A stretch of DNA of 64,000 nt. Source: Gelidibacter gilvus. Its GTDB lineage: Bacteria; Bacteroidota; Bacteroidia; Flavobacteriales; Flavobacteriaceae. Below, piece after piece: positions 19,757-51,880 of the stretch (positions are counted from its first letter, which is position 1; each line of letters starts with the position of its first letter). Under the pieces are notes generated by a model. It had not been told where the DNA came from. It did no database searches and worked only from the letters and a program-made list of their open reading frames with translations. Position numbers and translations under genes: made by a program. The stretch lies in assembly GCF_004115975.1 (NCBI RefSeq), contig NZ_SDDZ01000004.1, positions 248,001 to 312,000 on the forward strand, read 5' to 3'.

Positions 19757-20962
19757 CTACGTCAACTCATAAAAATCCCTTCTCCCCACCTTGATGCGAA
19801 GATTCTTTTTCAGTGGCACACTCTGGTGTGGATCTGTGATTTTTTCATTGTCAATTTGGATGGCACCGCTTTCGATCAGTCGTCTTATGGCCGATTTACT
19901 CAAATCTTGTTTTAGATGGCTACATAAATCAATAACGTTCATACTTCCGTTAACCGATCTCATAGCGCTGATTGATACAGGGTCAAAGGCTTTCTCTTCA
20001 AAATTTTTATTTTGAAACTGATTGGTAAAAAAATCTTCGGCTTCCTGCGCCGCTTGTTCATTATGGTATTGGGTGATGATGTTTTTGGCGATGATTTTCT
20101 TGAGGTTCATTGGATTTTCTCCATCAGCCAAGCGCGCTTTCAACAGCTCTTTTGCCTCAACTGAAAAATCTGTAGTCAGATCCAAAAACTCTGTAATAAG
20201 TGTGTCGGGAATGGACATGGTCTTACCAAACATATCATTTGGTGCGTCTGTTATACCGATGGTATTGTTCAAAGATTTGCTCATTTTCTCCTTCCCGTCC
20301 AAACCTTTTAACAAAGGCATACACATGACCGTTTGTGGAGCCATGCCGTAGGTCTGTTGCAATTGCCTGCCCATCGTACAGTTAAAGAGCTGGTCGGTGC
20401 CGCCCATTTCGATATCGCAGTTGATTTTAACGGAGTCAAAGCCTTGTAGAATTGGGTACACCAATTCGTGCATGGCGATGGGCGTGTTTTCGGTAAACCG
20501 TTTGTTAAAATCATTCCGGTGCATCAATTGCGCCACGGTCACATTCGATAAAATTTGAATGATTTCTGAGAAGGACAGTTGATCCAACCAATTGGAGTTG
20601 AAAACGATTTCACTCTTTTCCACATCAATAATCTTTGACAGTTGCGAGATATAGGTTTCGGCATTGCGGAGGACATCGTTATTGCTTAGAGGTTGGCGAC
20701 TTTTATTCTTTCCTGTGGGATCGCCAATTCTGGCCGTAAAATCCCCAACCAAAATCACGATTTGATGGCCCAGGTCCTGAAATTCCTTTAATTTTTTAAG
20801 CACCACCGCATGTCCCAAATGTAAATCGGGAGCGGTTGGGTCAAATCCAAGTTTGATGATGAGCTTCTTGCCATCTTTTTCGGCTTGTTCCAATTTTTCG
20901 ACCAATCCGTTTTCTGGTAGAATTATTTCTACGTTTTCTTTTAATCTGTTACTTGTTTCCAT
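19757..20962 (-). CDS. tyrS: Tyrosyl-tRNA synthetase
   Basis: Class I aminoacyl-tRNA synthetase charging tRNA-Tyr. The 401 residues include the signature HLGH at 48-51, the tyrosine-pocket segment GGTDQLFNCTMGRQ (about 188-201) and the second signature KMSKS at 226-230; the C-terminal S4 RNA-binding domain fills about 345-401 (SKSAIRRLIESGAIQI). The exact KMSKS form and the short length place it in the second bacterial TyrRS type (TyrZ-like) rather than the E. coli type. Upstream on the same strand lie a strong terminator ending 13-18 bases before the ATG and a Tyr-rich short ORF, suggesting attenuation control. Confidence 0.95.
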   Translation of the reverse strand: METSNRLKENVEIILPENGLVEKLEQAEKDGKKLIIKLGFDPTAPDLHLGHAVVLKKLKEFQDLGHQIVILVGDFTARIGDPTGKNKSRQPLSNNDVLRNAETYISQLSKIIDVEKSEIVFNSNWLDQLSFSEIIQILSNVTVAQLMHRNDFNKRFTENTPIAMHELVYPILQGFDSVKINCDIEMGGTDQLFNCTMGRQLQQTYGMAPQTVMCMPLLKGLDGKEKMSKSLNNTIGITDAPNDMFGKTMSIPDTLITEFLDLTTDFSVEAKELLKARLADGENPMNLKKIIAKNIITQYHNEQAAQEAEDFFTNQFQNKNFEEKAFDPVSISAMRSVNGSMNVIDLCSHLKQDLSKSAIRRLIESGAIQIDNEKITDPHQSVPLKKNLRIKVGRRDFYELT

Positions 20963-20970
20963 GTCATTTT

Positions 20971-21007
20971 TAAATAAAAAAAAGCCCGAGCAAAATGCTC
21001 GGGCTTT
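20971..21007 (-). terminator. Intrinsic terminator/attenuator in the tyrS leader
   Basis: On the minus strand, AAAGCCCGAGCA pairs perfectly with TGCTCGGGCTTT around a 3-base loop (20981-21007) and runs into a U-rich tail. It lies between a short Tyr-rich ORF and the tyrS start, with no other gene for it to end. A TGCTCGG copy at 21066-21072 (read on the minus strand) can pair with the CCGAGCA of the 5' arm, an alternative antiterminator-like helix of 7 bp. Confidence 0.75.
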
Positions 21008-21032
21008 AGGTATATTACTATATGTTGTTGTG

Positions 21033-21134
21033 TTAAATCAATTTCAAGTATGTGTATAACCTATCCGAGCAAATATTAGTATCATAATAAGTGCTGAAAA
21101 ACGGAAGGCGTAATATGTAGTTCAAAATTTTCAT
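21033..21134 (-). CDS. Putative Tyr-rich leader peptide of tyrS
   Basis: A 33-residue open frame (begins MKILNYILRL, ends LYTYLKLI) with five tyrosines, at positions 6, 16, 17, 27 and 29, including one adjacent pair. Its stop lies 25 bases before the terminator stem. A Bacteroidetes -7 box TAAATTTG (21143-21150, minus strand) lies 8 bases before its ATG, predicting a transcript that begins almost at the start codon. This is the arrangement of a ribosome-stalling attenuator sensing charged tRNA-Tyr. Tyr codons are fairly common in A/T-rich DNA, so the enrichment alone is only suggestive; the case rests on the combination with the terminator and the alternative pairing. Confidence 0.5.
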   Translation of the reverse strand: MKILNYILRLPFFSTYYDTNICSDRLYTYLKLI

Positions 21135-21486
21135 TTCGTGGGCAAATTTACGGATTAATATGACATCTGCGATTTGTTTTTGGGATAAAAGAAGGGGTTA
21201 GGGTTTCGTGCTCAAGATTTAATCATGGCGCAACCTAGAGGGGCCGTAATCAAAATTCCCTGTCTGCCGATAGGCAAATTCCAAATTCCAAATTCCAAAT
21301 TCCAAATTCCAAATTCCAAATTCAAAAATGAAAGCTCAAGTGTCCACCTTCCTAGCGACTTCAGTTTTGTCCAAGCTTAAAGAAACTCTGATTACTGAAT
21401 GCTAAAGGCTGAAGACTCCCTCAGTTTTGGTTGTTAATTTCCTAATAAATCCGTAAATTACTAAGGCAAAATTAATACATACTATT
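21135..21486. other. Intergenic gap with AAATTCC short tandem repeats
   Basis: Besides the tyrS promoter region (21143-21150), the 352 bases hold a palindromic fragment (21256-21276) and about seven head-to-tail copies of the 7-mer AAATTCC/AAATTCA at 21276-21326. The same short repeat recurs near 29475. No gene is supported. Confidence 0.6.
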
Positions 21487-21801
21487 ATGGACATTATAAA
21501 AACAATTACGGAGTTTTTCAAGAAATCTGAAGAAGAAACGATTGACGTTGCACCTGAAGGCATGTGTTCGCTATGTTGGGGAATACAGGAATACGACGGT
21601 AAAATACGAAAATTATATAGGGATAAACAAGTGGATGTCAATAACCACAAGGACGCCTATATGTTGGTTCAGAAATTTGTTAAGGAAAATTTAGACGGCT
21701 ATCAAATCAAGGATGGCATCGTGCACGTATGCCCAAATTGCAGCGAATTGGAAGAGGGAAAGGATCGCATTGAAAAATTTAGACCGTCTGAGATCGCCTA
21801 G
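21487..21801 (+). CDS. Small zinc-ribbon-like protein of unknown function
   Basis: The 104-residue soluble protein has two Cys pairs: CSLC followed by WG (residues 28-31) and CPNC (about 84-87), separated by a mixed helix/strand region (VDVNNHKDAYMLVQKFVKENLDGYQ). This spacing fits a four-cysteine zinc ribbon. The phrase GMC..CWG..EYDGK recalls small uncharacterised flavobacterial proteins, but I know no function. It starts at an ATG shortly after the repeat-rich gap and is convergent with the PAS histidine kinase. Confidence 0.65.
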   Translation: MDIIKTITEFFKKSEEETIDVAPEGMCSLCWGIQEYDGKIRKLYRDKQVDVNNHKDAYMLVQKFVKENLDGYQIKDGIVHVCPNCSELEEGKDRIEKFRPSEIA

Positions 21802-37903: not shown

Positions 37904-38215
37904 ATGAAACCAGGCTTCATTTATATATTGACCAATAAAAACAATACCACTTTATATGTTGGTGTATCTTCTGATATTGTGGAACGTGTTGGACAACACA
38001 AGATGAAGTTGAACAAGAATTGTTTTACGGCGCGATACAATTTAGATAAATTGGTATATTATGAAGTTTTTCAGATGATTGGTGATGCCATTGGCAGAGA
38101 GAAACAATTGAAAGGTGGCAGTAGAGCGGATAAAATAGTATTGATAAACAGGTTAAACCCCGAGTGGAGAGATTTGTATGACGAGGTGAAAATAGAATAT
38201 GGAAATGGTCAGTAA
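37904..38215 (+). CDS. Small stand-alone GIY-YIG nuclease
   Basis: A 103-residue single-domain GIY-YIG protein. It opens GFIYILTNKNNTTLYVGVSS, giving the paired G-x-Y and Y-V-G signature, followed by the catalytic-region Arg in DIVERVGQHK, and the Glu in AIGREKQLKG. The ending NPEWRDLYDEV is usual for this group (often labelled UPF0213 or excinuclease-like). It lies only 6 bases after hsdS, so it shares that transcript, and is followed at once by copies of the CATTGCGAGGAG repeat. A role in repeat spread or in restriction is possible but unproven. Confidence 0.85.
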   Translation: MKPGFIYILTNKNNTTLYVGVSSDIVERVGQHKMKLNKNCFTARYNLDKLVYYEVFQMIGDAIGREKQLKGGSRADKIVLINRLNPEWRDLYDEVKIEYGNGQ

Positions 38216-38352
38216 TATCATTGGGAGTAGCCTGTAGTAAGTGTCATTGCGAGGAGCCCAAATAGTACGTCATTGCGAGGAGCCTGTAGTAAGGTCATTG
38301 CGAGGAGCAAAGCCAAAGCATGAAAGTTATAAAAGAATTAAAATGCGACGAA

Positions 38353-38600
38353 GCAATCTCATGAATGAACCTAACAAAACAAAGATCAGGACAAAGCCAT
38401 AAAGCCAACGAAACAAAATGTAAAAGTTAATAATCATTAAGTAATGAGCAATCTCATAAATGAACCTAACAAAACAGAAATATAGGATAAATCCATAAAG
38501 CCAACGAAGCAAAATGTAAAAGTTAATAATCATTAAGTAATGAGCAATCTCATGAATGAACCTAACAAAGCATAGATCAGGACAAAGCCATAAATGCGAA
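38353..38600 (+). repeat. 95-bp tandem repeat, about 2.6 copies
   Basis: Units start with GCAATCTCAT at 38353, 38448 and 38543, exactly 95 bp apart, and continue GAATGAACCTAACAAA...; the last is cut near 38600. The unit carries the right arm of the dispersed element. Copies are nearly identical, so the duplication is recent. Confidence 0.85.
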
Positions 38601-38695
38601 GAAGTGATTTATAAAACCTTGCTCCGTCGTTTATATATAAAGATTGCTTCGTCGCTTGCTGCTGTCGTGATGACATGAAGTTTTTGGATGTGCTC

Positions 38696-38893
38696 CTCGC
38701 AATGACGACAACTATGGGGTATCGCAATGACGAAAAGCAAGAGGTCGCGCATTGACGAAAACTAAGGGGTCGCAATGAGGAATGCTAAGAGGTATCGCAA
38801 TGGAGAAAACGATGAGTTATCGCAATGACGACAACTATGGGGTATCGCAATGACGAAAACTAAGAAGTCTCGCATTGACGAAAACTAAGAAGG
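38696..38893 (+). repeat. 25-bp degenerate tandem array, eight units
   Basis: Units resemble ATCGCAATGACGAAAACTAA followed by GAGGT and start at 38696, 38721, 38746, 38771 (23 bp), 38794, 38819, 38844 and 38869. The first 12 bases are the end of the inverted dispersed element (CTCGCAATGACG), so the array grew from that element. There are no unique spacers. Confidence 0.85.
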
Positions 38894-51522: not shown

Positions 51523-51798
51523 CATACTTCGACAAGCTCAGCAACCATACTTCGACAAGCTCAGCAACCATACTTCGACAAGCTCAGCAACCATACTTCG
51601 ACAAGCTCAGCAACCATACTTCGACAAGCTCAGCAACCATACTTCGACAAGCTCAGCAACCATACTTCGACAAGCTCAGCAACCATACTTCGACAAGCTC
51701 AGCAACCATACTTCGACAAGCTCAGCAACCATACTTCGACAAGCTCAGCAACCATACTTCGAGAAGCTCAGCTACCATACTTCTACAAGTTCACCAAT
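51523..51798. repeat. 23-bp tandem array, 12 units (CATACTTCGACAAGCTCAG...)
   Basis: Ten identical units of CATACTTCGACAAGCTCAG plus CAAC run from 51523 to 51752, then two mutated units to 51798, followed by a looser half-unit with CACTTCGCTCAGCACAG. The word CTTCGACAAGCTCAG is a common dispersed palindrome-like word in flavobacteria. Because 3 x 23 is 69, two open frames pass through the array; they are not genes. The array occupies the space where an fmt promoter would be expected. Confidence 0.95.
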
Positions 51799-51880
51799 CA
51801 TAATTCCACTTCGCTCAGCACAGGCATGTAGTTCGCAAATAATTATTCCACTCGGTGTTGAAGTTTTTAGCATGCTCGGT

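Follow-up and report, generated by a model that had tools for sequence, protein, structure and literature searches.

The gene for a second, auxiliary tyrosyl-tRNA synthetase (TyrRS) of Gelidibacter gilvus, here called tyrZ, is very probably under ribosome-mediated transcription attenuation, with charged tRNA-Tyr as the sensed signal. It lies in a 64,000-nucleotide (nt) stretch of contig NZ_SDDZ01000004.1 (the window, by which we mean that whole stretch), downstream of a short leader open reading frame (ORF) and a terminator. A preliminary description of this DNA had proposed that Tyr shortage favours antitermination at this site, and the idea survived a set test of whether the Tyr codons and the pairing are conserved in relatives, so that sequence comparison now supports it. 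Beyond that description, the analysis identified the gene as an auxiliary TyrRS, found peptide conservation past the Tyr codons and a protector hairpin, and showed the cassette to be scattered over the tree.

Layout of the leader–tyrZ locus

All elements of the locus (box, leader ORF, terminator, T-run and synthetase gene) are on the minus strand:

21143..21150, minus strand: promoter box, -7-type, TAnnTTTG (TAAATTTG), from the sequence; 8 nt 5' of the leader ATG
21033..21134, minus strand: leader peptide ORF, 33 codons (MKILNYILRLPFFSTYYDTNICSDRLYTYLKLI), found in 70/70 Bacteroidota loci, with a synonymous excess in codons 1–17
21084..21089, minus strand: putative regulatory codons Tyr16-Tyr17 (TAT TAT), invariant in 71/71 leaders
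21059..21109, minus strand: predicted protector hairpin 1:2, GCCTTCCG..AGCA..TGCTCGG.TAGG, whose apical stem contains or adjoins the Tyr codons; from folds and the swap test
21065..21071, minus strand: arm 2, TGCTCGG, with arm 1 or arm 3 as alternative partners; G[CT]TCGG in 69/71 leaders (those parsed)
21059..21063, minus strand: predicted antiterminator extension TAGGT, partner ACCTA at 21011-21007, from the swap test
20996..21007, minus strand: arm 3, the terminator 5' arm, common to antiterminator 2:3 and terminator 3:4
20981..20992, minus strand: arm 4, the terminator 3' arm, followed by the T-run; double changes at 5/11 pairs (31 rows)
19757..20962, minus strand: TyrZ-type tyrosyl-tRNA synthetase (auxiliary TyrRS), 401 aa (TIGR00234, 340.9 bits; PF00579, S4)

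The preliminary description was accurate on the visible parts. Its -7 box is at 21150-21143, with the leader ATG 8 bases later at 21134. Its 33-codon ORF (21134-21033) has five Tyr codons (6, 16, 17, 27 and 29), the adjacent pair being 16-17. Its 12-bp terminator with a U-run (21007-20981, 3-nt loop) stands before the synthetase ATG at 20962. The TGCTCGG that it had paired with the terminator 5' arm (21071-21065) is the exact complement of CCGAGCA at 21002-20996, a pairing kept with compensatory change in relatives. Tyr17 is 13 nt from GCTCGG, the end of arm 2 is 30 nt from the stop codon, and the stop codon is 31 nt from arm 3. Among the 12 terminator-like sites in 15 kb, a total not above shuffles (mean 15.1), only this terminator and one other reach 12 pairs, and this one has the most G-C pairs. 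The alternative folds that had been suggested as a check were computed and gave competing 1:2, 2:3 and 3:4 helices, with a leader RNA far more stable than shuffles (z -5.10; 0/200 shuffles as stable).

Separately, ~7.6 copies of a repeat of 7 bp (minus-strand AATTTGG, 21275-21327) lie between the leader promoter and a divergent ORF at 21487.

Conservation of the leader peptide

Relatives were collected by a genome-contig scan with the window protein, from which the best 80 of 158 confirmed loci were taken; 70 of them are from Bacteroidota (L003-L072), and 43/70 are named Chryseobacterium. The same N-terminal leader ORF precedes tyrZ in all 70 Bacteroidota loci, with the consensus MKxLNxILRLPFFSTYYY and the core MKxLNxILRLPFFSxYY. 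Including the window, there are 71 leaders (69 starting with ATG, 1 with GTG and 1 with TTG), and every one has Tyr16 and Tyr17 (hereafter YY). A third Tyr is present at codon 18 in 23 leaders, and the later Tyr codons of the window leader are not conserved. The preliminary description had cautioned that a ribosome stalled at the last two Tyr codons would leave TGCTCGG covered. That caveat falls away, as conservation singles out codons 16-17, and G[CT]TCGG begins 12–16 nt past them.

Conservation is not confined to the Tyr codons. Among 27 leaders, no variation was seen at M1, L4, L8, P11, Y16 and Y17, and at least 90% have each of K2, I7, R9, L10 and F13. We counted pairwise codon differences in 37 hand-picked leaders. 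Codons 1–17 gave 3291 synonymous vs 1985 nonsynonymous differences, and the other two frames of the same stretch gave 728:4697 and 342:4859. For codons 7–13 (ILRLPFF) the ratio was 1780:365, with entropies of 0.17, 0.14 and 0.98 at the three codon positions. After YY the synonymous excess is gone (374:5123, vs 345:4723 and 376:4609 in the other frames). As the excess is in one frame and extends up to YY, this part is evidently translated and selected as a peptide, and the comparison indicates that selection acts on the peptide up to YY and on the RNA downstream. The unusual part is the peptide-level conservation of the non-regulatory ILRLPFF.

The start of the unit is also conserved. The sequence TAnnTTT[GA], which we take to be the promoter consensus, is present in the 30 nt that precede the start codon of 65/71 leaders, compared with 4.0 expected in letter shuffles, and it is 7–9 nt before the start in 53/71. 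The position of the box suggests a nearly leaderless transcript with a very short 5' untranslated region.

Three competing helices

In attenuators of the E. coli trpL, hisL and pheL type, the protector is numbered 1:2, the antiterminator 2:3 and the terminator 3:4, and we use the same numbering. By sequence comparison, three mutually exclusive helices of this kind are kept across species. First, a terminator hairpin of at least 9 pairs with a T-run ends 14–26 nt before the tyrZ start in 69/70 Bacteroidota loci by scan, and in the 70th (L023) this hairpin carries a single mismatch. Helix 3:4 has 11 consensus pairs, 5 of them with changes on both sides (31 rows), and a T-rich tract follows it in 31/31 aligned rows.

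Second, arm 2 (G[CT]TCGG) is found at its 12–16 nt distance from YY in 69/71 leaders, in two reading frames (44 and 25 leaders). Helix 2:3 has 6 consensus pairs, none of which is broken in 32 rows, and one pair is CG in 17 rows and UA in 15. The C/T of arm 2 is always matched by G/A in arm 3 (44 T:A and 25 C:G in 69 leaders, no exception), and the full 7/7 pairs can form in 27/69. Many rows extend the helix, for example with GGCTATGT paired to ACATAACC.

Third, in helix 1:2 the codons for RLP and S pair with arm 2 and its 3' side. In 28 hand-picked rows, the mean z was -2.78 for helix 1:2 and -2.36 for the 2:3 region, with z below -1 in 24/28 and 25/28 rows, respectively. When arms were swapped among 30 rows, the native mean was reached in 0/5000 permutations for the 2:3 core, 4/5000 for the extension and 3/5000 for 1:2; after removal of 8 Chryseobacterium rows, these counts were 2/5000, 269/5000 and 4/5000. 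Overall, the parts by which an attenuator is recognized were found at this locus: a translated leader ORF, cognate regulatory codons, a terminator, an antiterminator pairing and a protector hairpin 1:2.

A second TyrRS

The window gene encodes a second, auxiliary TyrZ-type TyrRS that stands beside a housekeeping TyrRS. Its translation has intact HLGH and KMSKS motifs. The same genome encodes another TyrRS of 436 aa, which is 27% identical to the window protein and has KFGKS where the window protein has KMSKS. Both are above the NCBIfam tyrS cut-off, but they are different TyrRS types, considering that the nearest PDB structures are 6bqy and 1h3e for the window protein and 6n0w, 1jii and 2ts1 for the 436-aa protein. 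We assume that the names TyrZ and TyrS apply to these two types. In 22 genomes of loci with TyrZ-type genes, a search for the housekeeping enzyme found it in 19/19 from Bacteroidota (54–94% identity) and, as a housekeeping-type TyrRS, in 2/2 from Bacillota (45–48%); the alphaproteobacterial metagenome-assembled genome gave a single match at 29% identity. For this sporadic second TyrRS of Bacteroidota, the suggested purpose is that of an inducible spare, as with auxiliary synthetases elsewhere, some of which confer antibiotic resistance according to the relevant part of one account (PMC9437257).

Distribution and movement of the leader–tyrZ unit

Leaders were sought with a 19-residue peptide profile in overlapping genome sets; the large searches scored part of the first-look candidates (e.g. 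23 of 43). Strong matches were found in 10/98 genomes (own included), comprising 8/9 of the window's genus and 2 others; matches at E 0.01 or weaker in this set and the preceding search were treated as noise. Wider searches gave matches in at least 6/397 genomes of the family, at least 22/395 of the order and at least 4/392 phylum-wide at E 0.001. One of these four, a weak match (L125 in genome G405, E 9.8e-4), lacks both Tyr codons and was rejected as a likely chance match. The gene directly downstream was tyrZ in 31/31 strong leader loci checked (67–100% identity; some of these genomes are shared with the tyrZ scan). The leader was found before no other gene in the profile searches, and since these scored only part of the candidates, this absence is no proof. 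In 59 genomes (own included), tyrZ and the leader co-occur in the same 8, and neither was found in one congener (G002).

TyrZ-type genes as such are far more widespread, with matches at E 1e-60 in 269/392 phylum-wide genomes; those listed are 41–49% identical, except in the own genome, G086 and G094. None of the 27 ordinary Bacteroidota TyrZ-type genes that we inspected has a terminator hairpin in the 200 nt before its first Met (0/27). When every possible start was considered under looser criteria, six-pair matches turned up in 2/27, in both cases belonging to Met codons deep within the frame. Within the genomes searched, these results indicate that the leader is restricted to the auxiliary TyrRS gene.

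In the TyrZ tree, the 38 leader-bearing rows of 60 form one clade (97/97), whose neighbours are alphaproteobacterial and Gracilibacteria sequences (93/85). Taxonomy is mixed inside the clade: Gelidibacter appears in three places and Chryseobacterium in two, Vaginella falls with Sphingobacterium, and Telluribacter falls with Chitinophaga. Constraining the window and six Gelidibacter rows together, a group named after the first tree, was rejected (p-AU 2e-41). Because the tree scrambles taxonomy in this way, horizontal movement of the leader–tyrZ unit among Bacteroidota is likely, and it is the simplest reading. Within Gelidibacter itself, TyrZ differs clearly between species: that of L003-L005 is ~85–87% identical to the window protein, vs 73–74% for L014, L023 and L046, differing lineages that point to replacement or repeated gain.

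Among the 14 largest neighbourhood clusters listed, two of which are tyrZ itself and an antisense ORF inside tyrZ, shared neighbour genes occur mainly among Chryseobacterium loci and close Gelidibacter. Gelidibacter L004 and L005 also have the window's three downstream genes, and L009 has one of its upstream genes. Gene neighbourhood was considered as a clue to function and set aside, the sharing being mainly within Chryseobacterium among the members listed. A search for plasmid carriage matched 17 plasmid records, all below 60% identity, and found no plasmid carrier of tyrZ.

Proposed mechanism and alternatives

Building on the translated peptide, invariant Tyr codons, exclusive helices and auxiliary-gene restriction (in what was searched) that the comparisons show, we propose the following course of events. 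Judging from the promoter box, transcription would start just before the leader ATG. With ample Tyr-tRNA, the ribosome would pass codons 16-17 and reach the stop codon ~30 nt beyond arm 2, where hairpin 1:2 would be cleared. This hairpin would then re-form behind the ribosome, arm 3 would be free for arm 4, and RNA polymerase would terminate before tyrZ. With scarce Tyr-tRNA (tyrosine shortage, or an overloaded or inhibited housekeeping TyrRS), the ribosome would stall at Tyr16-Tyr17. Sitting over the central part of hairpin 1:2, it would melt this hairpin and leave arm 2 exposed just beyond its own leading edge. Arm 2 would pair with arm 3, the terminator would be blocked and tyrZ would be transcribed. 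The leading edge was placed relative to arm 2 using a ribosome footprint size that we take as given, so we infer the release of arm 2 from spacing. The stop codon is upstream of arm 3 in 69/69 leaders parsed. The ILRLPFF stretch may have a helping role in the exit tunnel.

Several observations weigh against this mechanism. Only 6/7 pairs can form between arms 2 and 3 in 42/69 leaders, and folds are weak (z above -1) for helix 1:2 in 4/28 rows and for the 2:3 region in three. The swap permutations ignore relatedness, and the 269/5000 obtained without Chryseobacterium makes the extension helix insecure in that set. On the tyrZ tree (35 rows), 3 changes of state were counted for each of arms 2 and 3, and a single independent pair is well supported; the covariation, though consistent, thus rests on few events. 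In most rows compared, helix 3:4 is stronger than 2:3, so the antiterminator must win kinetically. Two loci of one genus (L186 and L187, genomes G734 and G545) keep the peptide, YY and the terminator and have lost G[CT]TCGG; their antiterminator would need to be shifted or weak, and may be rebuilt from other bases. Finally, plain Tyr attenuation leaves the conservation of ILRLPFF unexplained.

One rival explanation is a nascent-chain arrest switch. Here, MKxLNxILRLPFFSxYY would stall the ribosome near YY through the exit tunnel, with the same 2:3/3:4 readout, and the trigger could be a small molecule (a tyrosine analogue, a TyrRS inhibitor or another drug), with low Tyr-tRNA maybe one input. 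As in arrest peptides, the nascent-chain residues before the presumed stall site are conserved at the amino-acid level, as shown by the invariant and near-invariant non-Tyr residues in 27 leaders and by the 1780:365 ratio of ILRLPFF. We nevertheless consider such a switch unlikely, as an invariant YY before a tyrosyl-tRNA synthetase gene directly fits tRNA sensing, the RLP codons in part take up pairing in hairpin 1:2 as well, and the N-terminal residues could serve initiation or pacing. A bolder version, to which we give similarly low credence, is a true arrest peptide in which ILRLPFF, lying in the exit tunnel, would prime the ribosome to be trapped at YY by a TyrRS inhibitor or even by a mild drop in Tyr-tRNA; together with tyrZ, this would make a self-contained mobile spare-synthetase cassette that is switched on when the housekeeping TyrRS is poisoned.

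Control at the level of translation, or a plain upstream ORF with a terminator that insulates tyrZ from upstream transcription, seems quite improbable. Two points speak for these readings: in 69 loci no more than 14–26 nt separate the hairpin from the tyrZ start, and Shine-Dalgarno signals are often missing from flavobacterial genes. Against them stand the T-rich tract after the hairpin in 31/31 rows, the conservation of arm 2 as the complement of arm 3 and, in the window, the lack of any same-strand ORF longer than 90 aa within 700 nt upstream of the leader.

A T-box or tyrosine riboswitch is more improbable still. Bacillota relatives of tyrZ (L077, L080 and L081) carry GGGTGGTACCGCG upstream, presumably a T-box sequence, but what is conserved in Bacteroidota drifts synonymously, as expected of a reading frame and unlike an aptamer, and the possibility was rejected because neither this locus nor any of 12 relatives had a match to an Rfam 15 family that reached its cut-off. 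A relaxed Rfam threshold gave 34 matches (e.g. MicC and Leu_leader), all below cut-offs, most overlapping the terminator and none of them a T-box. As the Bacillota T-box occupies the same position, the same type of gene would be under tRNA-charging control by a different device; the Bacillota T-box and the Bacteroidota leader attenuator would be two unrelated devices before one kind of gene. Lastly, a chance Tyr-containing ORF beside an ordinary terminator can be dismissed: Tyr codons are common in A/T-rich DNA, as the preliminary description cautioned, but the same ORF in 70/70 loci and its synonymous excess rule this out.

Other features of the window

Away from the locus, the window has twelve near-perfect copies of a 23-bp unit at 51523-51806 (96% matches) and three neighbouring tandem arrays at 38211-38890 (periods 26, 96 and 25 bp).

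Comparison with known systems

The principle of ribosome-mediated attenuation has been laid out before (PMC1183508), and the tyrZ leader resembles the trpL, hisL and pheL attenuators, as far as the portion of that article used here describes them, in its short leader ORF, adjacent regulatory codons and predicted race between ribosome and RNA polymerase. Unlike those, it precedes a synthetase gene, not biosynthesis genes, it is found in Bacteroidota, and its non-regulatory half is conserved at the amino-acid level across several families. The Rfam leader models RF00513, RF01859, RF00512 and RF00506 were below cut-off at the locus.

Attenuation is already known for synthetases as well. Streptomyces TrpRS1 is under ribosome-mediated attenuation and, like TyrZ here, is a second, divergent synthetase beside a housekeeping one; unlike TyrZ, it serves Trp and belongs to another phylum. 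TrpRS1 is indolmycin-resistant, as stated in part of PMC9437257. In Bacillus, a His leader precedes the hisS paralogues hisS* and hisZ (Naville and Gautheret 2010, PMC2965389, in the sections drawn on here), which is similar in placing a cognate-codon leader upstream of duplicated synthetase-type genes and different in using a stretch of His codons in Firmicutes. In the same sections, those authors write that, to their knowledge, demonstrated leader-peptide systems had been confined to Proteobacteria and Actinobacteria, with ermC as an exception, and the main text contains neither 'Bacteroidetes' nor 'tyrS'. Streptomyces lividans has leaders before trpS, leuS, alaS and thrS, several of them transcribed leaderless (PMC8079986, in part); these too are synthetase genes with cognate-codon leaders, but in Actinobacteria, and a Tyr case is not among the leaders in the portion of that article used.

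Two systems are closer by phylum or by gene. The Bacteroid-trp RNA (RF01692) is a candidate Trp-leader attenuator of the same phylum, which, unlike the tyrZ leader, lies upstream of trp genes (PMC2864571 and PMC6414381, both in part). It had no match at the locus over cut-off or among the relaxed matches, and one tRNA was the only Rfam match over cut-off in the window. Elsewhere in the own genome there is one Bacteroid-trp match over cut-off (L185 1501-1622; G000:C42:125263-125384), not beside obvious trp genes, with flanking ORFs that look YceI-type and GIY-YIG-type by eye. By gene, the nearest case is Bacillus subtilis tyrZ, which likewise encodes an auxiliary TyrZ, an L-Tyr-selective enzyme, beside housekeeping TyrS; the relevant part of PMC9437257 describes it with no mention of a leader peptide.

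By title and the start of the abstract, the open-licence literature searched gave no description of a tyrosine leader in Bacteroidota, subscription papers being mostly outside this scope. As far as searched, a Bacteroidota tyrosine case with a peptide conserved far past its regulatory codons is new. If true, it means that in Bacteroidota, a phylum poorly charted for such control, a tyrosyl-tRNA synthetase gene has its own leader-peptide attenuator, and it would imply transcription–translation coupling there close enough for attenuation. Compared with the classical attenuators, it would offer a testable case of a leader conserved beyond its regulatory codons, one that bears on whether those attenuators are themselves nascent-chain assisted.
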